From assembly GCA_030019475.1 (NCBI GenBank), contig JASEER010000005.1:1-33032 (forward strand): DNA of 33,032 nucleotides. Reading direction: 5' to 3'. The number at the start of each line of letters is the position of its first letter. The stretch's first letter is position 1. Below, piece after piece: positions 3,205-27,899 of the stretch. Made by a program: the position numbers and the translations under genes. Source of the DNA: Thermoanaerobacterales bacterium. Its GTDB lineage: Bacteria; Bacillota; Desulfotomaculia; Desulfotomaculales; JASEER01. The notes under the pieces were generated by a model. That model was not told the origin of the DNA. It did no database searches and saw nothing but the letters and a program-made list of their open reading frames with translations.

Positions 3205-3389
3205 CGGCCTTCTCACCTCCGGTCTTTCATGCGGTCAATTCTTCGCCGCCGCGCTGGTGTTTCCTGCCGGCGGCGGCCTTTCCTCCCATATCCTGGCCCT
3301 GGTCCGGCCGACCTATGCGGCGGGCATATCCTGCCCCCCGAAGAACCCATACTAACACCAAAGTTATACAGAAAGCCGGGAGTTGGAAA

Positions 3390-4942: not shown

Positions 4943-5236
4943 TTACCAGTCGGCCGGGGTAATCACCGGCCAGTAAACCCCGCCGCAGAACCGGCAGGTG
5001 CGGCCCGGCTTCTCCAGGCAGAACCGCCCGCACTGGGAACAGATGCACTCCCGCCGGAAAGGAAGCTTGCCGCATTGGGCGCGCCCGGGCAGGTAATTGC
5101 GGCAGGAGCCGCAAGACAGGGGGGCCAGGTCGCAGGCCAGGCTGGTCCGCTCTTCGGGTGCGGGGTCGTAATGCGGGCACATAAGGACACCTTGCCGGTT
5201 GAAATAAGTAGCGTGCAGATGGATCAGTTCACCCAT
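4943..5236 (-). CDS. Small cysteine-rich protein, probable metal-binding (unknown function)
   Basis: I do not recognise this 97-residue protein. It has 11 cysteines: C20, C35, C42, C45, C55, C64, C66, C69, C73, C81 and C84. Pairs spaced C-x2-C (42/45, 66/69, 81/84) suggest zinc ribbons or an iron-sulfur site. There is no signal peptide and no membrane segment. The ATG at 5236 has a purine-rich SD (GGAAGGGGG, 7 bases away), a candidate promoter just upstream and a terminator just downstream, so it looks like a real single-gene unit. It could be a regulatory or redox zinc-finger protein. Confidence 0.7.
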   Translation of the reverse strand: MGELIHLHATYFNRQGVLMCPHYDPAPEERTSLACDLAPLSCGSCRNYLPGRAQCGKLPFRRECICSQCGRFCLEKPGRTCRFCGGVYWPVITPADW

Positions 5237-5270
5237 TGTCTAACCCCCTTCCAATTCCTTTAATTCTGAA

Positions 5271-5299
5271 ATCTTAAAACATTTGGAATTGAATGTGAA
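5271..5299 (-). promoter_or_regulatory. Candidate promoter of the cysteine-rich gene
   Basis: On the minus strand TTCACA (5294-5299), a 17-base spacer and TAAGAT (5271-5276) lie about 35 bases before the ATG at 5236, within an AT-rich island (5240-5340) that stands out from the GC-rich surroundings. Both boxes deviate from consensus. Confidence 0.45.
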
Positions 5300-5309
5300 A
5301 TTTATCACG
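5294..5309. promoter_or_regulatory. CRP/FNR-type operator candidate
   Basis: TGTGA-AATTTA-TCACG matches the CRP half-site arrangement TGTGA-N6-TCACA at nine of ten half-site bases. It overlaps the -35 box of the promoter for the cysteine-rich gene. The rest of the 5310-5493 gap holds only weak inverted repeats (for example ATACCCA 5351-5357 with TGGGTAT 5371-5377), with no gene. Confidence 0.4.
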
Positions 5310-5493
5310 ATCTCCTAGCTCTAAAATATGTCAAGGGAGCACCCCTGTCAATACCCACCCGGCACAAACATGGGTATAGTCTAATGCCGCTTGCGTTACG
5401 TTTATGCGAAAGGATGGCACGCCGCCGACCGGTTCTGATGGGCGGACGGTCTGATAGGTGGGCGGCGGGTGTTTTGACGTTTGGGTGGCAATG

Positions 5494-6735
5494 TCACTGG
5501 TGCATTGAGCGTGTTGAAGAAACCAGGTTCTCGGTGCGGCGGCTGATCAGGGTGGCATCCACGCTCAGGCGCGCGGTGCCGGAAATCATCGCGGCCCGCG
5601 CCGTGGCCGCGGCGACGGCCGGTGCGACGCGGTGGTCGAGGGGGCGGGGGATGATCCTCTGGGGCGAGAGTTCGTCGGCCACAAGCGCCGAGATGGCCTC
5701 GGCGGCCGCAAGCTTCATGGCGTCGTTGATATCCCGGGCCCTGACATCGAGAGCCCCGCGAAAGATCCCCGGAAAGGCGAGGACATTATTAATCTGGTTC
5801 GGGAAGTCGGACCTGCCGGTGGCCACAACGGCGGCGCCGGCACGCAGGGCCTGGTCGGGCCAGATCTCCGGTTCCGGGTTCGCCAGGGCGAAGATGATGG
5901 GATCAGGGGCCATTGAACGTACCATGTCTTCGGTGACCAGGTTGGCACGGGAGACGCCGATAAAGACGTCGGCTTCCGCCAGGGCATCGGCAAGGCTGCC
6001 CTGCCTGCCGTCCGGGTTGATGCGCCGGGCGATTTCCTCCTTGTGAGGGTTCATGCCCTTTGGCCGCCCGGCGTAGAGGATTCCCTCCCGGTCACACACA
6101 AGAATCCGGCCGACGCCGAGGGTCAGAAGCAGCCTGGTGATGGCGAGGCCGGCCGAGCCCGCACCGTTGATGACGACCTTTGTTCCGCCGGCCCGGCGCC
6201 CGGTGAGGTTAAGGGCGTTAAGCAAGCCGGCGGCCACCACGACCGCCGTCCCGTGCTGGTCGTCGTGAAAGACGGGGATATCGAGAGTGCGCTTTAACTC
6301 TTGCTCGACTTCAAAGCAGGCGGGGGCGGCGATGTCTTCCAGGTTGATCCCCCCGAAAGTCGGGGCCACCTGCTGTACGAAGCGGATCACGTCGGCCGCT
6401 GTACGGGCGTCGATACACAGTGGAAAGGCGTCCACCCCGGCAAAGGTCTTAAATAACATAGCCTTCCCTTCCATAACCGGGAGGGCGGCCTCGGGTCCCA
6501 CGTTTCCCAGGCCGAGAACGGCGGTCCCGTTGGACACTATAGCCACGAGGTTGTCCTTGGCCGTGTAATCGTGAACGGCCTCCCGGTCGGCGTAGATCTC
6601 CCGGCTCGGGGCCGCCACGCCGGGCGTATAAACCAGCGACAGGTCCTGCTCGTTGCGCAGCGGGAGCTTGGACGTGACCTCTATCTTCCCTTTAGCCTGG
6701 CGATGCAGGGCCAGCGCTTCTTCACGCAGCGCCAT
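5494..6735 (-). CDS. Malic enzyme (malate to pyruvate + CO2)
   Basis: Oxidatively decarboxylates malate to pyruvate with NAD(P)+ and a divalent metal. The 413-residue protein is of the short bacterial type without the phosphotransacetylase-like extension. Visible landmarks are VYTPGVA with the catalytic tyrosine near 36, GKAMLFKTFAG with the catalytic lysine, GINLEDIAAP and HDDQHGTA for metal and substrate, a Rossmann GAGSAG loop, FALANPEPEI and GRSDFPNQINNVLAFPGIF. Cofactor preference cannot be read. The ATG at 6735 has AGGGGTG 7 bases upstream; the frame stays open well upstream (to 6894), but that stretch holds the promoter and a hairpin and is not coding. It lies downstream of frdB in the C4-dicarboxylate island and feeds malate carbon to pyruvate. 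Confidence 0.94.
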   Translation of the reverse strand: MALREEALALHRQAKGKIEVTSKLPLRNEQDLSLVYTPGVAAPSREIYADREAVHDYTAKDNLVAIVSNGTAVLGLGNVGPEAALPVMEGKAMLFKTFAGVDAFPLCIDARTAADVIRFVQQVAPTFGGINLEDIAAPACFEVEQELKRTLDIPVFHDDQHGTAVVVAAGLLNALNLTGRRAGGTKVVINGAGSAGLAITRLLLTLGVGRILVCDREGILYAGRPKGMNPHKEEIARRINPDGRQGSLADALAEADVFIGVSRANLVTEDMVRSMAPDPIIFALANPEPEIWPDQALRAGAAVVATGRSDFPNQINNVLAFPGIFRGALDVRARDINDAMKLAAAEAISALVADELSPQRIIPRPLDHRVAPAVAAATARAAMISGTARLSVDATLISRRTENLVSSTRSMHQ

Positions 6736-6775
6736 CGGTTTCACCCCTGAAAGATGTATACAATATCCTAAATAC

Positions 6776-6804
6776 ACTATACCCCGGTGACTGTTTTCTG
6801 ACAA
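6776..6804 (-). promoter_or_regulatory. Sigma-A promoter of the malic enzyme gene
   Basis: On the minus strand TTGTCA (6799-6804), exactly 17 bases, then TATAGT (6776-6781). Five of six bases match consensus in each box. It sits about 41 bases before the ATG, so the malic enzyme can be expressed separately from the fumarate reductase genes upstream. Confidence 0.75.
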
Positions 6805-6844
6805 TATAAAATAATGTTGCCGACTTCCCCGGCCCGGAACGCGC

Positions 6845-6876
6845 GAGAGCCCGCGCCATAAGGTTTGCGGGCTCTC
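6845..6876. repeat. Perfect 10-bp inverted repeat after frdB, possible transcript end
   Basis: GAGAGCCCGC (6845-6854) and GCGGGCTCTC (6867-6876) pair perfectly around a 12-base loop. It lies 66 bases beyond the frdB stop and upstream of the malic enzyme promoter. No T-run follows on either strand, so it is either a non-canonical terminator or a 3'-end-stabilising hairpin. Confidence 0.6.
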
Positions 6877-6941
6877 ACCGGAAGGCCGGTCCATGCGTTA
6901 TGTTCTTATTGGTCCCGGGGGATAACGCTTGGCGTTCCCCC

Positions 6942-7670
6942 TTATAGCTTGAGGCCCAAGGCGGCCATTCGGCGGCGAACAAAGGCCAGCTGTTGCTGTA
7001 GGGGTAGCTGCGCCGGGCAGTTGTCCTCACAGGCCATAAGGCCGATGCAGCCGAAGGCCCCGTCGTTATTCCCCACGATCTCATAAAAGGCACGGCCCGA
7101 ACGCAGGTCGCGGGGATCGACCATGAAGCGGGCGACCCGGTTGAGACCGGCGGCACCGAGGAATTCCTGCCGGATGTTGGCCGTGGCGCAGCCGGCGATG
7201 CAGCAGCCGCATTCGATACAGCGCTCGGCTTCATAGATCTTGAGAGCGGTGGCGTTGTCCATCCGGTCCTCCCTGGCTGTAGGATCAAACTCCTTGTCGG
7301 TATGGATCCAGGCTTCGGTCTTCAACGAGAGATGCCGAAACCAGGTGCCGGTATCGACCGAAAGGTCGCCGATCAGCTTGAAAACCGGCAACGGCAACAG
7401 GGTAATCTGCTTGGGCAGCGTTCTGGTCAGGGTTTTGCATGCCAGGCCGGGGCGGCCGTTGATGAGCATACCGCAGGAACCGCAGATCGCCGCCCGGCAG
7501 ACGAAGTCGAACATCAGAGAGGGGTCCTGTTCCTCGCGGATGCGGTTCAAGGCCACGAAGAGGGTCATCCCCTCGGTTTCATTCAGCCGGTAGGTCTGCA
7601 GATGCGGAGTGACCTCATGTGAAGCGGGATTGTAACGGAAAATCTTAAAGGTCAGTTCACGATTAGGCAT
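6942..7670 (-). CDS. frdB: Fumarate reductase/succinate dehydrogenase iron-sulfur subunit
   Basis: This 242-residue subunit passes electrons between the diheme membrane anchor and the flavin subunit. It carries cysteines for all three clusters: CRAAICGSCGM plus a later C for [2Fe-2S]; CIECGCCIAGC for [4Fe-4S]; and CIGLMACEDNCP for [3Fe-4S]. The ATG at 7670 has GGGAGGT at 4 bases, and that SD lies immediately after the frdA stop, so the two are tightly coupled. The order C-A-B matches Wolinella fumarate reductase and Bacillus succinate dehydrogenase. Sequence alone cannot settle the physiological direction, but neighbouring fumarase, C4-dicarboxylate uptake and the anchor's features favour fumarate reduction. 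Confidence 0.94.
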   Translation of the reverse strand: MPNRELTFKIFRYNPASHEVTPHLQTYRLNETEGMTLFVALNRIREEQDPSLMFDFVCRAAICGSCGMLINGRPGLACKTLTRTLPKQITLLPLPVFKLIGDLSVDTGTWFRHLSLKTEAWIHTDKEFDPTAREDRMDNATALKIYEAERCIECGCCIAGCATANIRQEFLGAAGLNRVARFMVDPRDLRSGRAFYEIVGNNDGAFGCIGLMACEDNCPAQLPLQQQLAFVRRRMAALGLKL

Positions 7671-7680
7671 GTTTACCTCC

Positions 7681-9513
7681 CTACGCCTTCTGTGGATTGG
7701 ACCCTGTGCCGGACTGGGCGGATGATTCGCCGTAGCCCCGGTCGCCCGGAGGCAGTTCGGTAATCTTCACCGGCTCATACTTCAACTCGGGCAGGTCGGC
7801 ATCGGGCGGCCAGTAAGACAGGGTGCGCTTCAGCCAGTTGACGTCATCGCGTCGCGGGTAATCCTCGCGGGCGTGGCTGCCCCGGCTCTCGGTGCGCTGC
7901 AAGGCACCGTAGGCGATGCACAGCGCCAGGCGGATCATACCCGGCAGACGTAGGGCCGACGTCAGTTCGGGGCTGGCACCTCGTCCGCTTGATACCAGGC
8001 CGATGTGGCGCGAACGCTGGTGCAGCTCCTGCAGCCGTGCGACCGCCGTTTCGAGATCCTTGCCGTTACGGAAGATGCCCACATAGTCCATCAGGGTCTG
8101 CTCCATCTCCCGCCGTAGATGATAAACATTCTCCTTCCCGTTGCGGCCGTAGATGAGGTCGGCCAGGCGCGCCTCCTGGCGGCGAATCCGTTCCTCCACC
8201 AGTCGCGAGGAGAACTCCAGGTCGGCGCCGAGGGCGTACTCGGCGATTTTCTGGCCCACGATCATCCCGGCCACGATGGTCTCCGCCAGGGAGTTGCCGC
8301 CCAGGCGGTTGAAACCGTGCAGGTCCCAGCAAGCGGCCTCGCCCACGGCGAACAGGCCTTTAAGACCGTAAGCCTTGCCGTCGATGTTGGTCCGCACGCC
8401 GCCCATGCTGTAGTGCTGGGTCGGGCGCACAGGGATCAGCTGGTGCACCGGGTCCACGCCGACGAAGTTGCGGCAAATGTTGGCGATCTCGCGCAGGTTG
8501 GTGTTAATATGTTTCGCCCCGAGATGGCGGATGTCCAGCCACAGATGCGGGCCGTAGGGGCTGTCCACACCGAAGCCCTTGCGCATATGCTGGATCATGC
8601 GCCGGGAAACGACATCACGGGAGGCCAGTTCCTTCTTCTTGGGTTCATAATCGGGCATGAAACGGTACTCGTTCTTGTCCAGAAGGTAGCCGCCGTCGCC
8701 CCGGGCACCTTCGGTGATCAGAATCCAGACGGGTACGAGACCGGTGGGGTGGAACTGGACGGCCTCCATGTTGCCCAGGGGAACCATTCCGGTGTCGAGG
8801 GCCAGGGACATCCCGGTGCCCTCGTTGATGACCGCGTTGGTGGATGCGCCGTAAAGGCGGCCGTAACCGCCGGTGGCGATGACGGTCGCCCGGGCCAGAT
8901 AGGCCGTGAGCGCCCCCGTCCGGAGGCAGCGGGCGACGGCGCCGAGGCAGCGCTCCCCGTTGTGGATGAGGGCGATGGCCTCCATCCGGTCGTGAACGGT
9001 AATCCCCATTTTGATAACGATGGAGTCCATGGTGTATTGCAGGGTATGCCCCGTACCGTCGGCGGTGTAGCAGGTGCGCCACTTGGCGGTGCCGCCGAAG
9101 TCGCGGGCGTTGATGAGGCCCTCGTACTCGGGCTCCTCCTCGATCACCCGCCCGTCGGGAAGTGTCCGCTTACCGGCCACGACCCGGCTCCAGGGAACGC
9201 CCCAGTAGGCCATCTGGCGGACGGCGATCGGTACCGTTTCCACGAAAAGGCGGGCGACGTCCTGGTCGCAGCCCCAGTCTGAACCCCTTACGGTGTCAAC
9301 GAAGTGGATATCCGGGTTATCGCCCCGGCCCATGGCGCAGTTGCCGAGGGAGGCCTGCATGCCCCCCTGGGCCGCCGTGCTGTGGGAACGCCGGGGCGGG
9401 ACCAGGCTGAGGATGGTCACGTTCAGCCCGTGGGAGGAGGCTTCGATGGCCGCCCTTTCCCCTGCCAGGCCGGCGCCGATGATGAGAACGTCGGTGACGT
9501 GCGTGGTCACCAT
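7681..9513 (-). CDS. frdA: Fumarate reductase/succinate dehydrogenase flavoprotein subunit
   Basis: The 610-residue catalytic subunit. It begins with a Rossmann FAD loop (IIGAGLAGERAA, residues 11-22) and has the covalent flavin histidine H44 in HSTAAQGG. Active-site blocks include QFHPTGLVP, EGARGDGGYLL, the SRDVVSRRM arginine segment and RPTQHYSMGGVRT. The C-terminal helical region ends with a proline-rich tail. The ATG directly follows the frdC stop (TAG then ATG) and uses GGAGGTG, inside the end of frdC, as its SD. Together with frdB it forms the soluble cytoplasmic part of the complex, interconverting fumarate and succinate. Confidence 0.95.
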   Translation of the reverse strand: MVTTHVTDVLIIGAGLAGERAAIEASSHGLNVTILSLVPPRRSHSTAAQGGMQASLGNCAMGRGDNPDIHFVDTVRGSDWGCDQDVARLFVETVPIAVRQMAYWGVPWSRVVAGKRTLPDGRVIEEEPEYEGLINARDFGGTAKWRTCYTADGTGHTLQYTMDSIVIKMGITVHDRMEAIALIHNGERCLGAVARCLRTGALTAYLARATVIATGGYGRLYGASTNAVINEGTGMSLALDTGMVPLGNMEAVQFHPTGLVPVWILITEGARGDGGYLLDKNEYRFMPDYEPKKKELASRDVVSRRMIQHMRKGFGVDSPYGPHLWLDIRHLGAKHINTNLREIANICRNFVGVDPVHQLIPVRPTQHYSMGGVRTNIDGKAYGLKGLFAVGEAACWDLHGFNRLGGNSLAETIVAGMIVGQKIAEYALGADLEFSSRLVEERIRRQEARLADLIYGRNGKENVYHLRREMEQTLMDYVGIFRNGKDLETAVARLQELHQRSRHIGLVSSGRGASPELTSALRLPGMIRLALCIAYGALQRTESRGSHAREDYPRRDDVNWLKRTLSYWPPDADLPELKYEPVKITELPPGDRGYGESSAQSGTGSNPQKA

Positions 9514-10134
9514 CTATAAGGCACCTCCCAACTGGGCAAAGACCCACAGGATGACCAGACCAAGGCCGAAGATGACGGCGCTCACCGTCTTGGTTACCCA
9601 GCTTACGGTGTGCCGGTTGATCCAGCCCCACTTGACGAATACCCGGTAAAGGCCGAAGCCGGCATGGTACTCGCCAAAAACCAGCAGAAGCAGATAAAAC
9701 CACCAGTAGGTATGAATCCGGTCCGCGCTCTGGAGAGCCCGGATCGGCCATCCGGTGAGGATGGAAGCCACATGAATGCCGGCCAGCGCTCCCACTCCCA
9801 GCGCCGTGAATAGCTGGAAGACCCAGATCCAGGTGTCGGTGTGGTTAACCAGCCGGACGTGCCGCCAGAACTCCCGGTAACGGGTCGGGATGCGCCGGCA
9901 GACGGCGAAGACGTGAACGAAGGCCGCCGCGATAACGACGGGAATGCCCAGGTATGAGAGCCAGTAACGGTCCAGGAAGGCGGCGAACCGGTCAAAAGTG
10001 CCCATCCCGAGCAGGATCACGGCCAGAAAGAGCATGTGGGTCCAGAGGAAACCAACCAGGACGACGGCACTGACCAACTGCGCCAGTTCGACGTACAGGT
10101 CGGCCTTCAGATTGGTGTTAACGGTCTTTTCCAA
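9514..10134 (-). CDS. frdC: Diheme cytochrome b membrane anchor of fumarate reductase/succinate dehydrogenase (class B)
   Basis: This 206-residue protein has five hydrophobic helices. Four histidines lie in helices at H33, H74, H121 and H157, the pattern of the four axial ligands of two b hemes in class-B enzymes. E155 sits two residues before H157 in the block GEYHAGFGLYR, matching the position of the E-pathway glutamate (E180, with heme ligand H182) of the Wolinella enzyme, where it carries compensating protons during menaquinol-dependent fumarate reduction. The start is TTG at 10134, with GGAGGAG 9 bases upstream. The 66 bases before it contain no convincing promoter, so it is probably co-transcribed with the fumarase genes. 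Confidence 0.92.
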   Translation of the reverse strand: MEKTVNTNLKADLYVELAQLVSAVVLVGFLWTHMLFLAVILLGMGTFDRFAAFLDRYWLSYLGIPVVIAAAFVHVFAVCRRIPTRYREFWRHVRLVNHTDTWIWVFQLFTALGVGALAGIHVASILTGWPIRALQSADRIHTYWWFYLLLLVFGEYHAGFGLYRVFVKWGWINRHTVSWVTKTVSAVIFGLGLVILWVFAQLGGAL

Positions 10135-10200
10135 GGGGCGATTCTCCTCCTCGTCAACTGGTCAAAGCACAAGCCCATGAACCTTCCTTATCGGGAACGG

Positions 10201-10758
10201 TTAAGGCGCCTGGGCGTATTCCCGCCGCCCCCGCCGGTAAAGATCCTCACCGCGGCAGTCGATGGCCACGACGGCGGGGAAATCCTGGACCACAAACTCA
10301 TGGATGGCCTCGGGCCCAAGGTCGGGATAAGCCACGACCCGCGCCGCCTTGATGCAGCGGCTCAGAAGAGCTCCGGCACCCCCGACGGCGGCGAAGTAAA
10401 CGGCCTTGTGGTTTCGCATGGCCTCGACCACGGCCGGCGAGCGGTAACCCTTTCCAATCATCCCCTTCAACCCCCGCGCGATCAATGCCGGAGCATAGCG
10501 GTCCATGCGCCCGGCCGTAGTGGGGCCGGCGGCCCCCACGACCCTGCCGGGGGGCGCCGGACTGGGGCCCACATAGTAGATGATCTGGTTGGTAATGTCG
10601 ATGGGCAAGGGCTTTCCCTGGTCCAGCAGTTCATACATCCGCTTGTGGGCGGCGTCCCGGGCGGTATATACCGTCCCGCTGATGAGGACGGGCTGGCCGG
10701 CATGCAGGCTTTCGACGACGGCATCGGTAAGGGGCGTGGTTATCTTCAACGGTTTCAT
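10201..10758 (-). CDS. Fumarate hydratase class I, beta (C-terminal) subunit
   Basis: This 185-residue subunit pairs with the upstream alpha subunit in the iron-sulfur fumarase that hydrates fumarate to malate. Family blocks are LKITTPLTD at the start, LISGTVYTARDAAHKRM, YYVGPSPAPPG, GPTTAGRMD and IGKGYRS. The ATG at 10758 (MKPLKI) has GGAGGG about 10 bases upstream and matches the family N-terminus. An in-frame ATG at 10785 overlaps the alpha-subunit stop (ATGA) but lacks an SD. The paralogous activity in other members is tartrate dehydratase; the fumarate-related neighbours favour fumarase. Confidence 0.93.
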   Translation of the reverse strand: MKPLKITTPLTDAVVESLHAGQPVLISGTVYTARDAAHKRMYELLDQGKPLPIDITNQIIYYVGPSPAPPGRVVGAAGPTTAGRMDRYAPALIARGLKGMIGKGYRSPAVVEAMRNHKAVYFAAVGGAGALLSRCIKAARVVAYPDLGPEAIHEFVVQDFPAVVAIDCRGEDLYRRGRREYAQAP

Positions 10759-10781
10759 TCGGCGTTTCCCTCCTTCCCCCG

Positions 10782-11624
10782 TCATAAGAGCGTCGACTTG
10801 TGGCGCATCGCATGGCAGTTGATGTTTACCGCCACGGGCAGCGAGGCGATGTGCGTGGGATACAGCTCGACGTGTACGGCCAGGGCGGTCACCCGTCCTC
10901 CCAGACCCATCGGCCCGAGTCCCAGGGCGTTGATCCTTTCCAGCAGTTCGGCCTCCAGCGCGGCCGCCGCCGGGTCCGGGTTGGGCCTGCCGAGGGGGCG
11001 CACAAGGGCCTCTTTGGCCATGAGGGCCGCCTTTTCCATCGTCCCGCCGATGCCCACCCCGACCGTCAACGGCGGGCAGGCGTTGGGGCCGGCGGCAAGC
11101 ACAGTATCAATAACGAACTGCTTGACTCCCTCCACCCCGTCCGCCGGCTTAAGCATTTTTAAGGCGCTCATGTTTTCACTGCCGGCTCCTTTGGGGACGA
11201 CGGTAATGCGCAGCTGATCACCCGGAACGATCCGGCAATGGATCACCGGCGGCGTATTGTCGCCGGTGTTCACCCGTTCCAGGGGGCTCTTGACCACCGA
11301 CTTGCGCAGGTAGCCTTCGGTGTACCCCTGGTGGACCCCCTCCGTAACTGCGGCGTACAGGTCGCCGCCGACGATGGCCGCCTCCTGCCCGACATCGAGA
11401 AAAACGACGACGATGCCGGTGTCCTGGCACATGGGGATCCTTTCACTCTCCGCGATGGCGGCGTTGGTCAAGAGCTGTTCCAGGATTTCCCGGCCGACCG
11501 GGGAGACTTCTTTCCCCCTGGCGTTTTCTAGAGCGGCGCGGACATCGGCTTCGAGTTCAAAGCATGCTTCCTGGCAGAGCCGGGCCACAGCCGCGATAAT
11601 GTCATCGGTATTGATGGTGCGCAT
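10782..11624 (-). CDS. Fumarate hydratase class I, alpha (N-terminal) subunit
   Basis: This 280-residue subunit holds the oxygen-sensitive [4Fe-4S] cluster. The three expected ligands are visible at C66 (PMCQDTG), C183 (AGPNACPPL) and C270 (NINCHA). Other family blocks are VNTGDNTPP, PKGAGSENMSALKML and VGVGIGGTMEKAA. The ATG at 11624 has GAGGAGGGA at 8 bases. It follows dctM by 36 bases and overlaps the possible upstream start of the beta subunit. An oxygen-labile class I fumarase fits an obligate anaerobe. Confidence 0.94.
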   Translation of the reverse strand: MRTINTDDIIAAVARLCQEACFELEADVRAALENARGKEVSPVGREILEQLLTNAAIAESERIPMCQDTGIVVVFLDVGQEAAIVGGDLYAAVTEGVHQGYTEGYLRKSVVKSPLERVNTGDNTPPVIHCRIVPGDQLRITVVPKGAGSENMSALKMLKPADGVEGVKQFVIDTVLAAGPNACPPLTVGVGIGGTMEKAALMAKEALVRPLGRPNPDPAAAALEAELLERINALGLGPMGLGGRVTALAVHVELYPTHIASLPVAVNINCHAMRHKSTLL

Positions 11625-11660
11625 AAGCCTTCCCTCCTCGCCGCGTTGTTTTCGAGTTCG

Positions 11661-12941
11661 TTACGGCATCAGGACCCGCGGGATGTAGAGCGAGATCCCG
11701 GGCCAGTAAATAAGCAGGACCAGGAACGCCAGCATGATCACCAGGAAGGGCAGGACGCCCTTGATGACCTCTTCGAGGCGGGAACGGGCCATAGCGCTGA
11801 CGACGAAGAGGTTGAGGCCGACGGGCGGCGTGATCATGGCCAACTCCATGTTTACGGTCATGATAACCCCGAAGTGGACCAGGTCGATACCAAGGGCGGT
11901 GATCATCGGTAACAGGACCGGCAGGGTGATCAGGGTGATGGCGACGGCCTCGAGGAAGGTGCCCATCACAAAGAACATAATGTTGCACGCGAACAGGAAC
12001 AGGTAGCGGTTCAGGTTGCTGTCGGAAATCCACTGGGCCACGGCTCCTGGGATTTGGTTAAAGGTTAGGAAGAGCGAAAAGACCATGGCCGCGGCGATCA
12101 CCAGGAAGATCATTGAAGAAATATTGATCGCCTCGCGAAAAATAAGACGCATGTCTTTGAGGCTCAGTTCCTTATACAAAAAGCCCGAGACGATAAGCGC
12201 ATAGAAAACCGAAAGAACGGCCGCCTCGGTCGGGGTGACGACACCCTTGTAAATAGTGCCCAGGATAAAGAAGGGCAGGACGAACCCGGGCAGCGCCTTA
12301 AGGGTTGTCTGCCAGCGTTCTGTCCAGGACGCCTTCGGGGCTCGGCCGTAGTTGTGGCGTAAGGCCATGGCGATGGCTGAGACCATTAGGATTGCACACA
12401 GCAACAGGCCGGGGAGCAGCCCGCCCATAAAGAGCTTGCCCACCGATTCCTCCACTGTGACGCCGTAGACGACCATGACCACGCTCGGCGGGATAAGGAT
12501 GCCGAGGGTACCGGAGGCGGCGATAAGGCCCATCGCGTAGCGTTTTGGATAACCACCGTGGATCAAGGCGGGGAGCATAATCGCGCCGATGGCGGCGGCC
12601 GTGGCCGGGCTGGAACCGGAAATGGCGGCGAAAATGCCGCAGGACAGAACGGTCACCACCGCCAGGCCTCCGGGGAGATGGCCCAGCCAGGCGCGGAGGG
12701 CGTGGATCAGGTACTTGGCGATGCCGCCGCGGGACATAACCACCCCGGCAAAAACGAAGGCCGGAATGGCCATAAGGGGAGGAGAGAGCAGCGAGGCGAA
12801 CATCCGCTGCACAACCATGTAGACCGTGAAATCGCCCTGCAGGAAGATGACAATAATCGCCGCTACGGCCAGGCTGACGGCGACCGGGACATTCAGGAGA
12901 AACAGTATGACGAATATACTAAACAGCGCTAGGGTGGCCAT
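11661..12941 (-). CDS. dctM: TRAP transporter large permease DctM
   Basis: A 426-residue polytopic membrane protein with about 12 hydrophobic segments. It forms the ion-coupled translocation channel of a TRAP dicarboxylate importer. Family features include AIPAFVFAGVVMSRGG near the first third, SSPATAAAIGAIMLP, the conserved block ASGTLGILIPPSVVMVVYG, and TPPVGLNLFVV near the C-terminus. The ATG at 12941 has GAGG 4 bases upstream and lies 23 bases inside the end of dctQ, so the two are coupled. The frame continues upstream to 13016 but that part is out-of-frame dctQ. Confidence 0.95.
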   Translation of the reverse strand: MATLALFSIFVILFLLNVPVAVSLAVAAIIVIFLQGDFTVYMVVQRMFASLLSPPLMAIPAFVFAGVVMSRGGIAKYLIHALRAWLGHLPGGLAVVTVLSCGIFAAISGSSPATAAAIGAIMLPALIHGGYPKRYAMGLIAASGTLGILIPPSVVMVVYGVTVEESVGKLFMGGLLPGLLLCAILMVSAIAMALRHNYGRAPKASWTERWQTTLKALPGFVLPFFILGTIYKGVVTPTEAAVLSVFYALIVSGFLYKELSLKDMRLIFREAINISSMIFLVIAAAMVFSLFLTFNQIPGAVAQWISDSNLNRYLFLFACNIMFFVMGTFLEAVAITLITLPVLLPMITALGIDLVHFGVIMTVNMELAMITPPVGLNLFVVSAMARSRLEEVIKGVLPFLVIMLAFLVLLIYWPGISLYIPRVLMP

Positions 12942-13491
12942 AATCCTCGTCCCTCGCTTCCTGGGCGGCGAACCATGCCCGCCCGCCGTCCTTGAGCAAC
13001 AGCCATAGCTTTTCAATAAAGCGGAAAGCCAACATTAGTCCCGCCACGGGAAGGATCAGGGCGATGATCCACTCGGGGGTCTGGGTGTTGACGGTCCTTT
13101 GCCCCATCTTCAGGTAGAAGGCGACAAGGAGGTAACCGTAGTAGCAAAACAGGATAGAAAAACCAACCCCCACTGTATTGGCGAAAAGGCTCACCCACCG
13201 TTTCACCTTTAACGGCAAGAAGTTATAGAGCATGTCGACCTTGATATGGTGCTCGTTACGCTGGGCGACGGCCCATCCGAGCATGGTACCCCAGACAACC
13301 AGGTAAATCGAATACTCGTCAATCCAGGCCTTCGGCCGCCAGGCGGGAATATAGCGCAGGATGACGTTGACCATGACAAGTGTCAACCCGGTGAACAAGA
13401 GCCCGCCGGCCAGATAATCCTCCACGGCGGCGTAGATTTTCTTTAACTTCTGCAACCTGTGATCCCCCCGTGTGACAGACTGGAAAGCCAT
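12919..13491 (-). CDS. dctQ: TRAP transporter small permease DctQ
   Basis: This roughly 180-190-residue protein has four hydrophobic helices and the DctQ block IDEYSIYLVVWGTMLGWAVA, followed by HIKVDML. It partners DctM in the membrane. The start is unresolved. ATG at 13491 is used here but has no SD and begins only six bases after a strong hairpin. TTG at 13455 begins right at the conserved KLKKIYAAVEDYLAG block and has a G-rich stretch 8 bases upstream. A GTG at 13515 lies inside the hairpin and is unlikely. Confidence 0.9.
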   Translation of the reverse strand: MAFQSVTRGDHRLQKLKKIYAAVEDYLAGGLLFTGLTLVMVNVILRYIPAWRPKAWIDEYSIYLVVWGTMLGWAVAQRNEHHIKVDMLYNFLPLKVKRWVSLFANTVGVGFSILFCYYGYLLVAFYLKMGQRTVNTQTPEWIIALILPVAGLMLAFRFIEKLWLLLKDGGRAWFAAQEARDEDYGHPSAV

Positions 13492-13496
13492 AATGC

Positions 13497-13527
13497 GGGG
13501 GGCGGGAGTGAGCACGTCCCGCCCCCC
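13497..13527. promoter_or_regulatory. Strong hairpin between dctP and dctQ
   Basis: An 11-bp perfect GC-rich stem (13497-13507 with 13517-13527) closes a 9-base loop. It starts 26 bases after the dctP stop on the minus strand. No T-run follows, so it is probably not a full terminator. Its position suits a 3'-end barrier that raises binding-protein expression relative to the permeases, or an attenuator of dctQM. Confidence 0.75.
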
Positions 13528-13553
13528 GGTGGCTTATCATTCAACGACAGGCC

Positions 13554-14588
13554 TTACTTCGCCGCCTTGGCCGAGTCGATGTACTCCTGGCCGATGATCG
13601 GCACGTACTTGTCGTAAACCGGCTTCAGTGCTTCCTCGAAGGCCTTGCGGTCGGCATCGGTCAGGTTGTAGACCTCGAGGCCGCTGTTCTTCAGGGTCTC
13701 GAAGCTCTTCGCGTTCAGCTCGTCGGCCAGCTTGATGGCGTAGTCCGTGGCTTCCGCCATGGCGTCGGTGATGATCTTCTTCTGGTCGTCGGTGAGGCTG
13801 TTCCAGAAGGTGGTATTGGTCAGCACCACGTAGTCCAGCCGGCCGTGGGCGGAGACCGTCAGGTACTTCTGCACCTCGGCGTACTTCTGGGTGTCGATGT
13901 TGTTGAAGGTGTTTTCGGTGCCGTCGACCGTCTTGTTCTGCAGGGCCTGGTAGCATTCGGAGAAGGGCATCGGCTGCGCGCCCGCGCCGAGCGCCTCGAA
14001 CTGGTCGACCAGCAGGCCGCCGCTCTGGACGCGGAACTTCAGGTTCTTGAAGTCGGCCGGGGTCTTCAGGGGCCGCACGCCGTTGATGAAGTGCTTGGAC
14101 CCGTTCGGCCACCAGGCCAGGCCCAGCATCCCCTTCGGCTCCAGGGAGTGCAGGAGCTTCTCACCCATCTCGCTCTTGTACCAGTTATAAGCGGCCTGGT
14201 CGCTGGCGAAGAGGAAGGGCATATCAACCAGCTGGAAGGACTGGTTGTACTTAATGAGCTTTGTAACCGAGGGCGCGATGAACTGGACGTTGTTGGAGAG
14301 CAGGGCCTCCAGTTCTTCGTTGTCCCCGAAGAGCGAGGACGACGGGAAGACGGAAACCTTCATCGTCCCACCGGACTTCTGCTCGATAAGTTCGGCGAAC
14401 TTCAGAGCGGCCTGGCCCTTGGGAGTCTTCTCGGCCACGACGTGGGAGAACTTCATTTCAATAACCTTGGTTTCCTTGTCCTTATCGGCCGTATCCTGGG
14501 CGCCGCCGCCGCCACAGCCGGTGACGACAAAGGCAAAAACTCCGATCAGGACAAGTGCCGTCAAAATTACCCATAGACGCCTTTTCAT
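13554..14588 (-). CDS. dctP: TRAP transporter substrate-binding lipoprotein (DctP family)
   Basis: A 344-residue extracytoplasmic binding protein. The N-terminus is a lipoprotein signal (basic K2-R4, hydrophobic 5-22, lipobox VTGC with C25 as lipidated residue) followed by a glycine-rich linker. The mature part has DctP landmarks: KFSHVVAEKTPKGQAA, LKFRVQSGG with the conserved substrate-carboxylate arginine, and MPFSECYQALQNKTVDGTEN. The GGLLVDQFEALGAGAQ stretch deviates from the common DctP pattern, while the neighbouring paralogue keeps that pattern. The SD GGAGG is 7 bases before the ATG. It lies directly before dctQM and is probably the transport component. Confidence 0.93.
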   Translation of the reverse strand: MKRRLWVILTALVLIGVFAFVVTGCGGGGAQDTADKDKETKVIEMKFSHVVAEKTPKGQAALKFAELIEQKSGGTMKVSVFPSSSLFGDNEELEALLSNNVQFIAPSVTKLIKYNQSFQLVDMPFLFASDQAAYNWYKSEMGEKLLHSLEPKGMLGLAWWPNGSKHFINGVRPLKTPADFKNLKFRVQSGGLLVDQFEALGAGAQPMPFSECYQALQNKTVDGTENTFNNIDTQKYAEVQKYLTVSAHGRLDYVVLTNTTFWNSLTDDQKKIITDAMAEATDYAIKLADELNAKSFETLKNSGLEVYNLTDADRKAFEEALKPVYDKYVPIIGQEYIDSAKAAK

Positions 14589-14660
14589 GGTTTACCTCCT
14601 CAATACTTCTGGGCTTTTCTCTCTCTCTCGATGACTGGCTGCAAAACCGGTCCCTGCCTT

Positions 14661-15752
14661 TCACCCCCCCTTTCGGCCCGCCTTGCGGGCGGCGTTAATC
14701 AGGTCGGCACTGACCTGCTCGGCGAAAGAGTTATAAACCGGGGCCAGTGCTTGTTCCCACTCCCGCCGTTCTTTTGGTGTCTGTAAATGAATCTCAAGGC
14801 CATCCATCTTTTTCAAGGTCTCAAGGTCTTTGGCGTTGGTGGCGGCGGCGTAATCCCTTTCCCACCTGGTAACATCCTCCAGGCTATCCTCCAGGACGGC
14901 CCGGATGTCGGGCGGCAGTGAACGCCAAAAGTCCTGCTCTGCCAGGACCACGTAACCCAGAAAGCCATGATTGGAAAGGGTCATATAGGTCTGTCCCTCG
15001 TAAAGCCTCTTGGTCCGTAGATTCGAGAGGGTGTTCTCCTGCCCGTCCACACGGTCATGGGCCAGCGCACCGGGTACATCGCTGAAGGCCAGCGGGATGG
15101 GCTCGGCGTTTAGAAGACGGAATTGTTCCTGCAGCACCGAACTGCCCATCATCACCCGAAAACGGAGACCGGCAAAGTCTACGGGATGGACCAGGGGCCG
15201 CACCCGGTTGGTCATCTGCTTGAAGCCGTTATCCCAGAAAACCAGGGGTACCAAGCCCTCGGCCTCCAGCGCCTCAAAGAGCCGGGCGCGTGCCGGGCCG
15301 TCGACAAACCGGTGCACCGCCTCATAGGACGGAAAGAGGTAAGGCAGGTCAAGCACCTGCCAGGCGGGAGCGATTCCGGCCAGCTTCGAGGTGGCCGGAG
15401 CGATAAGCTGCACCTTTCCTTCCCGGAGGGCCTCAAATTCCTCCCCGTCCTTATAGAGGGTTGAGTCGTGAAAGACCTGGACCTCCACCCGCCCCCCCGT
15501 CCGCTGCCGGACCAGTTCGGCGAACCTCTCGACAGCCATCCCTTTGGGACTGTCAGCCGTCGTCACGTGGGAGAACTTAACGACGATTTTCCGGGCCGGG
15601 TCGACCTGTTCGCTGTCCGTCACGCGCTGGGTGCAGCCGTTAAAAAAAATGAGCGCCAAGACAAGCGCCAGGCTGATTAGAATAACTCTATACGGGAAAT
15701 GGGCTTTTCTAGTTAGCAACAAAACCTTGTTGCTGTAGGTACTATTCACCAT
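14661..15752 (-). CDS. Second TRAP-type binding lipoprotein, possible DctB-like co-sensor
   Basis: A 363-residue paralogue of the adjacent DctP. It has an unusually long N-region (about 22 residues) before the hydrophobic core, then a lipobox FNGC with C40. Family blocks are KFSHVTTADSPKGMA, LRFRVMMGS with the conserved arginine, and VDGQENTLSNL. The ATG at 15752 follows GGAGAG by 4 bases. A sigma-A promoter with an overlapping palindrome sits immediately upstream, and the regulator gene precedes it. It may be a second binding protein for the same transporter, or a co-sensor. In Bacillus subtilis a DctP-like protein, DctB, works with the kinase DctS. The proximity to the two-component genes suggests the latter, as an inference. 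Confidence 0.9.
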   Translation of the reverse strand: MVNSTYSNKVLLLTRKAHFPYRVILISLALVLALIFFNGCTQRVTDSEQVDPARKIVVKFSHVTTADSPKGMAVERFAELVRQRTGGRVEVQVFHDSTLYKDGEEFEALREGKVQLIAPATSKLAGIAPAWQVLDLPYLFPSYEAVHRFVDGPARARLFEALEAEGLVPLVFWDNGFKQMTNRVRPLVHPVDFAGLRFRVMMGSSVLQEQFRLLNAEPIPLAFSDVPGALAHDRVDGQENTLSNLRTKRLYEGQTYMTLSNHGFLGYVVLAEQDFWRSLPPDIRAVLEDSLEDVTRWERDYAAATNAKDLETLKKMDGLEIHLQTPKERREWEQALAPVYNSFAEQVSADLINAARKAGRKGG

Positions 15753-15764
15753 TAGCTCTCCACT

Positions 15765-15801
15765 TTTAGAAAATTCTAAATAGATGTCATCGAGGACTCA
15801 A
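15765..15801 (-). promoter_or_regulatory. Sigma-A promoter of the dctP operon with overlapping palindrome
   Basis: On the minus strand TTGAGT (15796-15801), exactly 17 bases, then TAGAAT (15773-15778) precede the ATG at 15752. A perfect palindrome, TTTAGAA-AA-TTCTAAA on the plus strand (15765-15780), covers the -10 box and the expected start of transcription. Upstream of the -35 box the DNA is A-rich (about 15805-15835, at the end of the regulator gene), a plausible response-regulator site. Confidence 0.7.
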
Positions 15802-15823
15802 CGTTTCGGTAATTGTGTTTATT

Positions 15824-16537
15824 TTAATCTTTTTGGTCCAAGGGTGGGGAAGCGTTGACCACGCGGTAGCGGTTTACGGGCCGGCCCACCGAGCCATACT
15901 GCAGTTCCAGGCCGACCTTCCCCACCCGCTGCAGGTAGTCCAGGTAGCGCCGGGCGGTGACACGGGCCAGCCCGACGCCGGCGGCGACCTCGTCGGCCGA
16001 AAGACTCTTCTCTTGTCGCAGCAGATAGACGTAAATCTGCTTCAGGGTCAGCTCGTGAAGCCCCTTGGGAAGGCTCTCCTTTCCGGCTTCTTCGCGGGCG
16101 GCGCCGCGTGCAAAGCGATCGACGGTCTCCTGGTCCACCAGCCCGCGGTGATGCGCCAGGCCTTCATGCATACCGGCGTATGATTCCAGGGCGGCCTTCA
16201 GGCGGTTGAACTTAAAGGGCTTGATAATATAGTCGATCGCTCCATGGCGGATGACGTCCTGGATCGTTGGAACGTCCTGGGCGGCGGTAATCAGGATGAC
16301 ATCCGTAGGCAAAAGGCGCCTTCGTATCTCATGGAGCACAGCCACACCGTCCATATCGGGCAGGTAAATGTCCAGGAGTGTCAGGTCCGGTTTCAATTCG
16401 GCGATGCTGTCAAGGGCCTCGGCTCCCGTGGCGGCGAGGCCGACAACAGTAAAGAAAGCCACCGACTGTACGAACTGGCGGTTGACTTCGGCGACCATTG
16501 GGTCGTCCTCGACAATCAGGGTTCTAATGTTCGCCAT
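15824..16537 (-). CDS. dcuR: Response regulator, CitB/DcuR/DctR type
   Basis: A 237-residue two-component regulator. The N-terminal receiver domain has the acidic pair E10/D11, phospho-acceptor D56 in LLDIYLPDMDG, the switch threonine in LITAAQD and the lysine in IIKPF. The C-terminal part (about 165-225) holds a helix-turn-helix (SADEVAAGVGLARVTARRYL) of the CitB kind. The ATG at 16537 lies 22 bases inside the kinase gene, with GAGAGGA 9 bases upstream, so kinase and regulator are translated together. The expected target is the promoter of the binding-protein gene that follows 71 bases later. Confidence 0.93.
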   Translation of the reverse strand: MANIRTLIVEDDPMVAEVNRQFVQSVAFFTVVGLAATGAEALDSIAELKPDLTLLDIYLPDMDGVAVLHEIRRRLLPTDVILITAAQDVPTIQDVIRHGAIDYIIKPFKFNRLKAALESYAGMHEGLAHHRGLVDQETVDRFARGAAREEAGKESLPKGLHELTLKQIYVYLLRQEKSLSADEVAAGVGLARVTARRYLDYLQRVGKVGLELQYGSVGRPVNRYRVVNASPPLDQKD

Positions 16538-18135
16538 GGGTTTTTCCTCTCTTCCCGGCGGGGGATGGTGACTCTAAAGACGGCGCCGCCGCCCGGGCCG
16601 TCCTCAACCCGGATGGCTCCCCCCGCAAGATCCACATACCGCTTGACCAGGGCCAGCCCCAGGCCCCGCCCTTCAACCCCGTGCGTGCTGTAGCCGGGGA
16701 GAAAGATCCTTTCCCGCTCTTCGGGGGGGATGCCGGGGCCGCGGTCCCTGACAACAATGGTGACGCCGTCAGGCTCATCGAACAGGCCGGCAAAGACCGA
16801 CCGTCGCTCGGGCTCCAGCTGGCGGACGGCTTCAAAGGCATTCTCCAGAAGGTTGCCGATGATAATCACCATGGCGCTGGAGTCGATATGCGGGGGCAGC
16901 TCTTGCAGACGGCTTGTGTGATCGATGACCAGTTCAATACGCATTTCCTTGGCCCGGCTGTGTTTACCCAAGAGCATTCCCGCGATGCCGTAATCATGGA
17001 CGTTCCGGGCCAGGAACTGGGTCAACTCCTGCTGTTCAGCGGTGACCCGGAAAATATAATCCAGGGCCTCTTGCAGCCGGTTGAGCTGGATGAGCCCGGC
17101 GATGGTGTGCAGTTTGTTCATATGCTCGTGGTTTTGTACCCGCAAAGCCTCGATGAACTTCTTCACCCCCGTGAGTTCCTCGGCCAGGCGCTGGACCTCG
17201 GTCTTATTGCGGAACGAGGCCACGGCTCCGACAATCCTGCCCTTAACGCGGATCGGGATGCGGTTGGTGACGACGACCACCTGGTTAATGAGCATCTCCT
17301 GGTTGTATTCCGCCCGGCCGGTGACGAGAACGCGGGGCAGGGCGCTGTCGGGGATGATCTCCCGCACCGGCCGGCCGAGGACGTTACCGGCGCCCATAAT
17401 GCGCTGTGCGGCTTCGTTGACCAGCGTGATCCGCGCCTCGCTGTCGACGGCGAGGATCCCCTCGTTGATGGATTGCAGGATGGCGATCCGTTCCTCCAGG
17501 AGCCGGGCGATTTGCTCGGGTTCAAGGTTGAACATCCCCCGCTTGATGCGGCGGGCCAGGTAGAGAGAGCCCAGGAGGCCGACGAGCAGCCCGAAGGCGA
17601 GGGCGAAATAGAGTTCCATGCGAATCGTTTTCAAAACGCTATGGATCGTCGGCGTAAGAATGCCGACGACGACAACGCCTACCTGCCGTGTCCCCTCTTC
17701 GGTCTTGATGGGCACGAAAGCGCGCACCGACGGGCCGACCACTCCTTCGGCCGGGGAGATGTAATCATCGCCGGTCGTTAACGCACGGGCCAGATCGGGG
17801 TCGGAGAATCTCCGGCCGATACGGTCTTGCAGGGGATGGGAGTAGCGGATGCCGTTATTATCCAGCACGACCACGTAAGCCACGTCGGTGGCCAATCGGA
17901 TGCGTTCGGCCAGGGGCTGGATAACCTGGGCGCCGCCCGGTCGGCCCACGTTTTGTCGGATGTCCTCCATCTGCGCCAGGGTCCGGGCGATGGCGATCGC
18001 CCGCATCCCCATCTCTCTTTCGAGTTGGGCTGTAAACCGCTCCACAACCAGGGCGCCGCCGGCCAGGACGGCGATCAGAATAGAACTGAAACACAGCAGG
18101 GCCATCTTGGTGTGCAGGCCAAATTTCAACTTCAT
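16516..18135 (-). CDS. dcuS: C4-dicarboxylate sensor histidine kinase, DcuS/DctS type
   Basis: A 539-residue membrane sensor, close to the 543 residues of E. coli DcuS. It has TM1 (about 10-32), an extracytoplasmic PAS domain (33-173), TM2 (174-195), a cytoplasmic PAS domain (about 214-310), a histidine box NHEHMNKLHTIAGLIQL with H336 the likely phosphorylated residue, and an ATPase domain with GNLLENAFEA, DRGPGIP and GRGLGLALV. In the sensing domain R97, H100, F110, R138 and F140 match the DcuS fumarate ligands R107, H110, F120, R147 and F149 almost exactly in spacing. Phenylalanine at the last site favours C4-dicarboxylates over citrate. The ATG at 18135 gives the family N-terminus but lacks a good SD; a GC-rich palindrome lies just upstream. 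Confidence 0.93.
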   Translation of the reverse strand: MKLKFGLHTKMALLCFSSILIAVLAGGALVVERFTAQLEREMGMRAIAIARTLAQMEDIRQNVGRPGGAQVIQPLAERIRLATDVAYVVVLDNNGIRYSHPLQDRIGRRFSDPDLARALTTGDDYISPAEGVVGPSVRAFVPIKTEEGTRQVGVVVVGILTPTIHSVLKTIRMELYFALAFGLLVGLLGSLYLARRIKRGMFNLEPEQIARLLEERIAILQSINEGILAVDSEARITLVNEAAQRIMGAGNVLGRPVREIIPDSALPRVLVTGRAEYNQEMLINQVVVVTNRIPIRVKGRIVGAVASFRNKTEVQRLAEELTGVKKFIEALRVQNHEHMNKLHTIAGLIQLNRLQEALDYIFRVTAEQQELTQFLARNVHDYGIAGMLLGKHSRAKEMRIELVIDHTSRLQELPPHIDSSAMVIIIGNLLENAFEAVRQLEPERRSVFAGLFDEPDGVTIVVRDRGPGIPPEERERIFLPGYSTHGVEGRGLGLALVKRYVDLAGGAIRVEDGPGGGAVFRVTIPRREERKNPWRTLEP

Positions 18136-18334
18136 AGAGAAGAAGCCCCCGGGGGGCAAAATCGTGGTTGCCTGCTGGAGAATTGGACATACCTGTTTAT
18201 AAACCCTTCTTTCCGCAGCACGGTAGATTGTATATGGAATGGGGTAAAGAACCACCGCCTGCGAGGCATTAACCTGCGCCCATTCCTCCACACTATAACC
18301 GGAGCATTAAAATGCACTGTAAAGGGGGATGCCG

Positions 18335-18652
18335 ATGTTTGTCAGCCGTGGGCGCAACCACCTTGACCAGCGGGTGGACGTTATTCCGTCACCGAGCCTG
18401 AGGGGCCGCCATGTAACAATCCGTTATGATGGGCTTCTGAACCGCGCGGGGGCGGACCGGGTCTTTATCCATTACGGGTTTGATGGCTGGAAGAAGAAGG
18501 GGACCATGGAGATGCGGCGGGAGCCGGACGGGGCCTTTGCATGTTCCCTGCCGATGGACGGGGACGTGGAATGCAACTTCTGTTTTAAGGACAGCGCCGC
18601 TAACTGGGATAACAACAGCGGCTGGAACTGGGCGACCGACATCCGGCCATAG
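18335..18652 (+). CDS. Stand-alone carbohydrate-binding domain protein (CBM25-like)
   Basis: A 105-residue protein made of a single starch/glycogen-binding beta-sandwich. Visible features are VTIRYDGLL at the first strand, HYGFDGWKKKGTMEM with an aromatic likely to stack on sugar, and the diagnostic end block NFCFKDSAANWDNN followed by GWNWATDI. There is no catalytic domain and no signal peptide, so it should act in the cytoplasm, perhaps on glycogen. The second ATG (18335) is chosen because it is 5 bases from GGGGG; the first ATG (18329) abuts it. It is divergent from the sensor kinase gene and followed by a strong terminator. Confidence 0.85.
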   Translation: MFVSRGRNHLDQRVDVIPSPSLRGRHVTIRYDGLLNRAGADRVFIHYGFDGWKKKGTMEMRREPDGAFACSLPMDGDVECNFCFKDSAANWDNNSGWNWATDIRP

Positions 18653-18685
18653 CCGGGAGTGCCGTGGACTGCGGCATGCCTTCGG

Positions 18686-18731
18686 AGACGCGTCCTTATG
18701 TCTCCTCCCTGAGACGAGGACGCGTCTTTTT
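18686..18731 (+). terminator. Rho-independent terminator after the CBM gene
   Basis: AGACGCGTCCT (18686-18696) and AGGACGCGTCT (18717-18727) form a perfect 11-bp stem. A nested GTCTC/GAGAC stem lies inside the loop, and a run of five T (18727-18731) follows. It starts 33 bases after the stop codon at 18652. Confidence 0.93.
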
Positions 18732-18759
18732 GTTTGTCCGCCCGGCTCCATGTTATGAT
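18730..18759 (+). promoter_or_regulatory. Candidate promoter of the EcsC-like gene
   Basis: TTGTTT (18730-18735), 18 bases, TATGAT (18754-18759) precede the GTG start at 18783. The -35 box overlaps the T-run of the preceding terminator. The -35 match is weak. Confidence 0.35.
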
Positions 18760-18782
18760 GAAATCAAAGGAGGTATGCAGGC

Positions 18783-24324: not shown

Positions 24325-24365
24325 GTCCCGTTCCCCCTCCGGATCTCGGGCCGAGGATGCACCTG

Positions 24366-25328: not shown

Positions 25329-25354
25329 AGTCGAACCCCCCTTGGGTGGTACAA

Positions 25355-26641: not shown

Positions 26642-26664
26642 CGCTCCTCACTTCCCTCTCCGTT

Positions 26665-27867: not shown

Positions 27868-27899
27868 CTTCAGCCCTCCTCGGTTATTGCTCGCGGACT

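Follow-up and report, generated by a model that had tools for sequence, protein, structure and literature searches.

Contig 5 (JASEER010000005.1) of a Thermoanaerobacterales bacterium (GCA_030019475.1; genome of 2.28 Mb, 95.7% complete) has, within its initial 33 kb (33,032 nucleotides, hereafter the window), an island of twelve co-oriented minus-strand genes (5494-18291) for a two-component system, two TRAP-type substrate-binding proteins, a TRAP permease, fumarase, fumarate reductase and malic enzyme. Judging by its gene content, this island probably serves the dismutation of C4-dicarboxylates under the control of a DctB-DctS-DctR type system (DctBSR). What is new here is a difference between the two binding proteins: one of them, DctP2, is a member of a class that goes with the sensor kinase rather than with the permease, and this class is marked by a linker motif. 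By analogy with known systems, DctP2 would act as a DctB-like co-sensor and DctP1 in transport. Every one of the twelve genes was identified by Pfam and ten were additionally scored against NCBIfam; they are listed in their order on the minus strand, the motif beneath its gene.

16516-18291, minus: DctS/DcuS-type sensor kinase (Pfam sCache_3_2, PAS, SPOB_a, HATPase_c; likely start 18135)
15824-16537, minus: response regulator, DcuR/DctR-like (Response_reg above the Pfam cut-off)
14661-15752, minus: DctP2, family-7 binding protein, proposed DctB-like co-sensor (PF03480; neighbourhoods, tree, linker motif)
15567-15617, minus: DctP2 linker motif D46-x-E48-Q49-x10-F60-S-H (alignment of the sensor class against transport clades)
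13554-14588, minus: DctP1, TRAP transport binding protein (PF03480; falls in the permease-adjacent clade)
12919-13515, minus: DctQ, TRAP small permease (PF04290, 108.8 bits)
11661-13016, minus: DctM, TRAP large permease (PF06808, 385.9 bits; TIGR00786 above cut-off; likely start about 12941)
10782-11624, minus: FumA, class I fumarase alpha subunit (PF05681; NF004885, 425 bits against a cut-off of 276)
10201-10785, minus: FumB, class I fumarase beta subunit (PF05683; NF005310, 267 bits against a cut-off of 238)
9514-10134, minus: FrdC, diheme cytochrome b subunit (PF01127, Sdh_cyt, above cut-off; aligned with 5xmj_C and 1qlb_C)
7681-9513, minus: FrdA, flavoprotein of the Wolinella/D. gigas type (NF006383, 1048 bits against a cut-off of 663)
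6942-7670, minus: FrdB, iron-sulfur subunit (NF010071, 400 bits against a cut-off of 264)
5494-6894, minus: malic enzyme (PF00390 and PF03949 above cut-offs; likely start about 6735)

All genes named in the original prediction were found, on the minus strand and in the predicted order (open reading frame (ORF) list, Pfam, NCBIfam). Its own gene list amounts to twelve genes, not to the eleven it counted, and the end it assigned to the island falls at an ATG (18135) inside the kinase gene, whose mechanical ORF begins at 18291. The spacing is operon-like: FrdA and FrdC abut, ORFs overlap at FumA/FumB, DctQ/DctM and kinase/regulator, and the remaining gaps are shorter than 75 bp, except for one of about 200 bp 5' of malic enzyme if that gene starts at 6735. 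The true start of malic enzyme may be its residue 54 (about 6735), close to residue 57, the first residue of its family alignment.

The two TRAP binding proteins had been regarded as two transport parts, a view that does not hold for DctP2, which neighbourhoods, tree and motif place in a sensor-linked class. DctP2 is a family-7 binding protein adjoining a DctS/DctR pair, as expected of a DctB co-sensor. Close members of its class (47-57% identity; DctP1-type proteins are about 40% identical to the DctP2 query) occur in 36 genomes besides that of the window, with remoter matches in addition, and lie directly 3' of the regulator in 36 of 38 regions (window included); in L114 the gene before it is a kinase of which only the sensor part is left, and in L178 it comes after DctM within one run. 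The gene on its other side differs between regions. By a tally made by hand over these 38 regions, the next neighbour is DctP1-DctQ-DctM in 14, another DctP-DctQ-DctM set in three, TAXI with a fused TRAP gene in two, a Liv-type ABC transporter in four (binding protein confirmed by Pfam in L122, L124 and L174, assignment by gene sizes in L119), a convergent Liv-type ABC transporter in one (L171), a convergent MFS gene in one (L175) and something else in two (L176, L178), while in 11 no transporter was recognised; nine of these 11 lead to a kinase-like gene and fumarase, the start of the propionate cluster of L121. In Bacilli, matches to the class at E 1e-60 were found in 72 of 299 genomes, and its members adjoin kinase or regulator genes together with a symporter (five of six neighbours tested were sodium:dicarboxylate symporters), TRAP or TAXI-TRAP genes.

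The same division is in part seen in a tree of 109 binding proteins, where the distant L264, L265 and L274_11565 were left out of clade counts. Five genomes (G049, G074, G156, G264, G373) are represented twice, so a count can exceed the number of genomes behind it. A group of 75 rows holds 63 proteins directly adjacent to a kinase or regulator, 11 in other positions and one adjacent to a permease; 74 of the 75 lie in a region with a kinase or regulator, the exception being L274. DctP1 falls in a permease-adjacent clade of 24 rows (22, and two that also adjoin a regulator; support 99/97), and a second transport clade comprises seven rows (100/99). The 75 and seven rows together are separated from the 24-row clade with support of 100/99. 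Within the large group, DctP2 of the window joins the proteins of L006 and L114 (100/98), from genomes that have the same enzyme genes.

Sensor class and transport clades also differ in a short stretch between the lipobox Cys and the folded domain; many Bacilli have an apparent membrane helix without Cys in place of the lipobox. There, D46 and Q49 (window numbering) are each invariant in 75 of 75 sensor-class proteins, and D-x-x-Q precedes F-S/T-H/Y at a fixed distance, with a span of 17 residues in all 75. Neither D nor Q is conserved in the 31 transport rows, and the motif at that spacing occurs in none of the 24 and none of the seven rows of the two transport clades, one of the seven having a looser D-x-x-Q. 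In 20 Bacilli regions outside motif discovery, all 19 kinase- or regulator-linked proteins, which are close to DctP2, have the motif, and the single protein adjoining DctQM without a kinase does not; it is likewise absent from all 21 proteins of loci whose short examined stretch has no kinase. Over 104 regions, a motif-bearing protein is present in 97 of the 97 with a kinase or regulator and in one of the seven without.

These patterns raise the possibility, which we put forward tentatively, that across Bacillota one branch of the TRAP-type binding proteins is dedicated to sensing, is marked by an invariant D-x-x-Q in the linker near the membrane and forms with DctS/DctR a constant sensing unit, before transporters that can be exchanged (TRAP, TAXI-TRAP, Liv-type ABC or symporter) or before none, with the motif as a kinase-docking or coupling element. 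If so, sensory and transport binding proteins would be distinguishable by sequence, many annotations as 'TRAP substrate-binding protein' could be corrected, and two residues would offer a handle on the communication between binding proteins and DcuS-family kinases. The island shows the sensor unit kept while the adjoining transporter is swapped. In the openly licensed literature, outside of which most subscription papers lie, no report was found of the sensor class in Desulfotomaculum-type bacteria or of its motif. A search for an operator upstream of DctP2-class genes gave a 6-base direct repeat in 38 of 79 regions against 16.7 in shuffles; no operator is claimed, because the commonest repeat words match the regulator coding sequence in the window.

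The kinase combines sCache_3, SPOB_a and HATPase domains in the architecture of DcuS/DctS C4-dicarboxylate kinases, and its sensor domain matches the DcuS/CitA sensor-domain structures 3by8 and 8bgb. Its pocket is of the DcuS type, R-x-x-H...R-x-F, and not of the citrate type R-x-K of CitA; we assume that these residues have the ligand roles assigned to them in the two kinase types. Among aligned kinases R149 and R190 are present in 77 of 77, H152 in 60 and F192 in 62 of 77, and the pocket reads R-x-x-H...R-x-F/Y. Since the kinase retains this pocket, kinase and DctP2 probably each detect the ligand. The regulator scores 177.8 bits against DcuR, its best NCBIfam model, below the cut-off of 262. 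Downstream, DctP, DctQ and DctM are all present and adjacent, and the nearest PDB chains carry the name of dicarboxylate-binding DctP proteins; DctP1-DctQM would be a C4-dicarboxylate importer. The host genome has a second DctM match, in a 714-residue frame at C33, the island holding one of the two, while both binding proteins found in the genome with the DctP2 query sit in the island. Gene families and kinase pocket together bear out the predicted set for sensing, uptake and conversion of C4-dicarboxylates.

On the enzymatic side, FumAB, FrdCAB and malic enzyme lie together, as a dismutation cluster would require. The best PDB chain for FrdA is 5xmj_A (E 1.3e-270). FrdC aligns with FrdC of D. 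gigas and W. succinogenes over most of its length, and its H33, H74, H121 and H157 correspond to W. succinogenes H44, H93, H143 and H182 (alignment, positions mapped by hand), which supports the predicted 'diheme' fumarate reductase; E155, the equivalent of Glu180, is conserved as well. The roles of the heme His and Glu180 are described in PMC6175931 (papers are cited by PubMed Central number). Malic enzyme falls below the cut-off of NF009501, a longer model of which it covers only a part.

Whether FrdCAB works as a reductase cannot be read from its sequence. The host is a sulfate-reducing bacterium; dsrA and the acetyl-CoA synthase domain CdhC were found in its genome, and FrdC is the only Sdh_cyt gene found there. 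Neither citrate synthase (PF00285, a model that would miss a Re-type enzyme; 13 of 14 control genomes positive) nor methylmalonyl-CoA mutase (eight of 14 positive) was detected in the host genome, though at 95.7% completeness absence of a gene is not proof. The pathways of these two enzymes are the usual reasons for running such a complex as succinate dehydrogenase, so neither a standard tricarboxylic acid cycle nor propionate oxidation explains FrdCAB, and fumarate reduction is favoured as its more natural reading. For Desulfovibrio alaskensis G20 growing with sulfate on malate or fumarate, fumarase (Dde_1254-1255) and fumarate reductase are important to fitness, a burst of succinate is seen, and the malic enzyme Dde_1253 is the proposed source of pyruvate (PMC4215793). 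Dismutation of malate or fumarate by the island is plausible but of a kind already known, that organism being reported to dismute with the same enzyme types. The predicted route to pyruvate and succinate stands as plausible, short of the direction of FrdCAB, whereas calling the module 'self-contained' was too strong, because the twelve genes include no path leading NAD(P)H and pyruvate to menaquinol and acetyl-CoA.

According to the mechanism we propose, DctP2, anchored outside the membrane by its lipobox, would bind malate, fumarate or succinate and, in complex with the kinase, set kinase activity together with the Cache domain; the regulator would then switch on the genes from DctP2 onward, presumably from a promoter before that gene. 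DctP1-DctQM would bring the acid in, fumarase would equilibrate malate and fumarate, malic enzyme would convert malate to pyruvate and CO2, and FrdCAB would reduce fumarate to succinate with menaquinol, or would reoxidise succinate when sulfate is available.

Three other explanations deserve consideration. Both binding proteins might serve one DctQM and give it a wider substrate range, the nearness of DctP2 to the kinase being mere operon order. In favour of this, DctP2, DctP1 and DctQM share one gene run, and W173, R199, E239, N240, N244, Y267 and other residues of DctP2 do not vary across the two classes; the six named, with the likewise conserved H262, probably form the pocket. We nevertheless regard it as unlikely: the class persists by kinase and regulator without a recognised transporter in 11 of 38 regions, stands beside a Liv-type ABC transporter in five (one convergent) or with a changed TRAP type (L006, L114), and its motif-bearing protein is missing from six of the seven regions without kinase or regulator. 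It is similarly improbable that FrdCAB is mainly a succinate dehydrogenase driven by membrane potential and the island a device for oxidising succinate to pyruvate with sulfate. No second complex of this kind was found in the genome, a relative acts as succinate dehydrogenase in Pelotomaculum (PMC10308238), and D55 of FrdC and a flavin-motif Gln are shared with that enzyme, but citrate synthase and methylmalonyl-CoA mutase were not detected in the host genome and neither residue is a marker of direction. An Asp at the D55 site is suggested to have evolved in syntrophic propionate oxidisers (PMC10308238); nevertheless, in rows that include some genomes more than once, position 55 is Asp in 18 of 76 (Glu in 56, gaps in two) in the first scan and in all of another 23 rows from relatives, so that D55 is not a syntroph marker and gives no guide to direction, and the Gln is common to the D. 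gigas and W. succinogenes reductases. Since this Asp is present in the host genome, in which no propionate mutase was detected, it is not usable alone for assigning direction. Least probable is that the genes form a loose group of neighbouring operons, each under its own control. Twelve promoter-like sites lie in 5200-19500 where shuffles give 4.1, one of them ending about 20 bases before DctP2, an excess that would fit such a group and from which, as from the whole promoter and terminator scan, we draw no functional claim; overlapping ORFs, short gaps and an order conserved in L006 and L114 save for the swapped transporter speak for a single unit.

Several points nonetheless weigh against a DctBSR-controlled dismutation island with DctP2 as its co-sensor. 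Because the regions were found by similarity to DctP2, their counts cannot separate function from shared descent and a Fisher test on them does not count as independent evidence, and the 75-row class is set apart from the seven-row transport clade with support of 86/11, weak by the SH-like approximate likelihood ratio test. One motif-bearing protein, at 5835 of L274 (genome G373), sits in a 13 kb region without a kinase, and an AlphaFold model of DctP2 from a three-row alignment was too poor to place the motif (mean predicted local distance difference test score 51.6) and was not used. The likeness of DctP2 to DctB rests on role and gene context, not on the sequence of B. subtilis DctB. As to the enzymes, FrdC misses the NCBIfam equivalog NF010072 (91.6 bits, cut-off 187), its D55 is the very residue tied to succinate-oxidising syntrophs, if more widespread, and the malic enzyme of D. 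alaskensis G20 (Dde_1253) had no fitness data (PMC4215793). Genome G373 also has a motif-bearing protein that adjoins a kinase (L298).

Recurrence of the arrangement was surveyed twice. A first scan covered the best 80 FrdA loci, outside the own genome, of 584 relatives meeting the test: matches to fumarase, fumarate reductase and malic enzyme occur together within the stretch examined in six (L006, L030, L032, L036, L053, L061), and these enzymes with kinase, regulator and DctP2 in one (L006). In a search of 120 genomes, the own included, FrdA matches were found in 68; from 61 of the other 67, 62 FrdA loci were surveyed, several on short contigs, the six genomes left out having matches near 40% only. 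Fumarase lies in the same stretch in 15 of these loci, fumarase and malic enzyme in five, and the full functional set with a sensor-class protein and a TRAP permease in two, L006 and L114, both with a TAXI-type binding protein and a long permease in place of DctP1-DctQM (Pfam in L006, homology in L114). The exact arrangement of the window was found nowhere else among the best 80 or the 62 loci. The two surveys recover the functional set but not the exact arrangement. The arrangement had been proposed as possibly specific to a lineage; the set is not, its enzyme core recurring in Desulfovibrionales and other loci and the full set in two Desulforudis-type genomes. Since the order kinase-(regulator)-DctP2...FumAB-FrdCAB-malic enzyme recurs in these two genomes of another family, the island is not a chance assembly. 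In L114 (G049) the kinase is reduced to its sensor part (2859-3502, matching window residues 52-207) and no regulator match was found, yet DctP2 and the enzyme genes still match; this locus additionally keeps upstream ADH and rhomboid genes.

Among the closest known systems, the island of Desulforudis sp. SURF_60 (L006) has kinase, regulator and DctP2 followed by FumAB-FrdCAB and malic enzyme, but differs from that of the window in its TAXI-type binding protein (NMT1_3) and long DctM permease instead of DctP1-DctQM, and in a TauE gene and another ORF before malic enzyme. The Desulfovibrionales loci L030, L032 and L036 cluster similar enzymes in a different order, FrdCAB-FumAB-malic enzyme; in the stretch examined, only 5 kb in L036, they have no kinase, regulator or DctP match at E 1e-8, so that the window adds sensor and TRAP genes. 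D. alaskensis G20 likewise uses malic enzyme, a two-gene fumarase and a Wolinella-related fumarate reductase on malate and fumarate (PMC4215793), while in Desulfohalobium retbaense fumarate reductase and fumarase have adjacent tags (Dret_1065-1069) and malic enzyme lies elsewhere (PMC3035252). The quinol:fumarate reductases of D. gigas (5xmj) and W. succinogenes (1qlb) have homologous FrdA and FrdC, the four axial His and the Glu180 equivalent being shared with the window; unlike in these enzymes, FrdC of the window is shorter and the Glu66 equivalent is Asp55.

As regards sensing, the co-receptor DctB is reported for DctS together with DctA in B. subtilis (PMC6978683), and genomes of Paenibacillus darwinianus have DctB and DctA genes beside DctS-DctR (PMC4186907). 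The B. subtilis system joins a co-receptor protein to a DctS/DctR pair, as proposed for DctP2; unlike there, where the transporter is DctA, the sensor-linked binding protein of the window adjoins a TRAP transporter with a binding protein of its own. BctC of Bordetella is likewise a transporter-type (TTT) binding protein working with a two-component system, but it belongs to another family and one protein serves both transport and signalling (PMC5812351). Proteins named DctB in plasmid records were only proteobacterial ones among the matches listed (40 of 140).

Other loci of the class lead into different pathways. In L121, L126, L127, L167, L168, L173 and L177, kinase, regulator and DctP2 without a recognised transporter are followed by a convergent gene (LexA in L121) and then by a cluster for fumarase, succinyl-CoA ligase and methylmalonyl-CoA mutase (Pfam on L121 only). 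In L113 (9644-17086) the sensor-TRAP unit precedes an HpcH/HpaI lyase, a SucCD-like ligase, an MmgE/PrpD protein and a second FrdA-like flavoprotein (about 40%), genes that suggest an itaconate- or citramalate-like pathway; gene sizes in L115-L118 and L120, from one family of relatives, resemble those of L113. Scans of the window with Rfam (gathering thresholds) and for tRNAs gave no hits. Elsewhere in the window, 23419-28607 holds a Flp/Tad-type pilus assembly run (two T2SSF, T2SSE, a receiver-ParA protein and RcpC/CpaB; Pfam).

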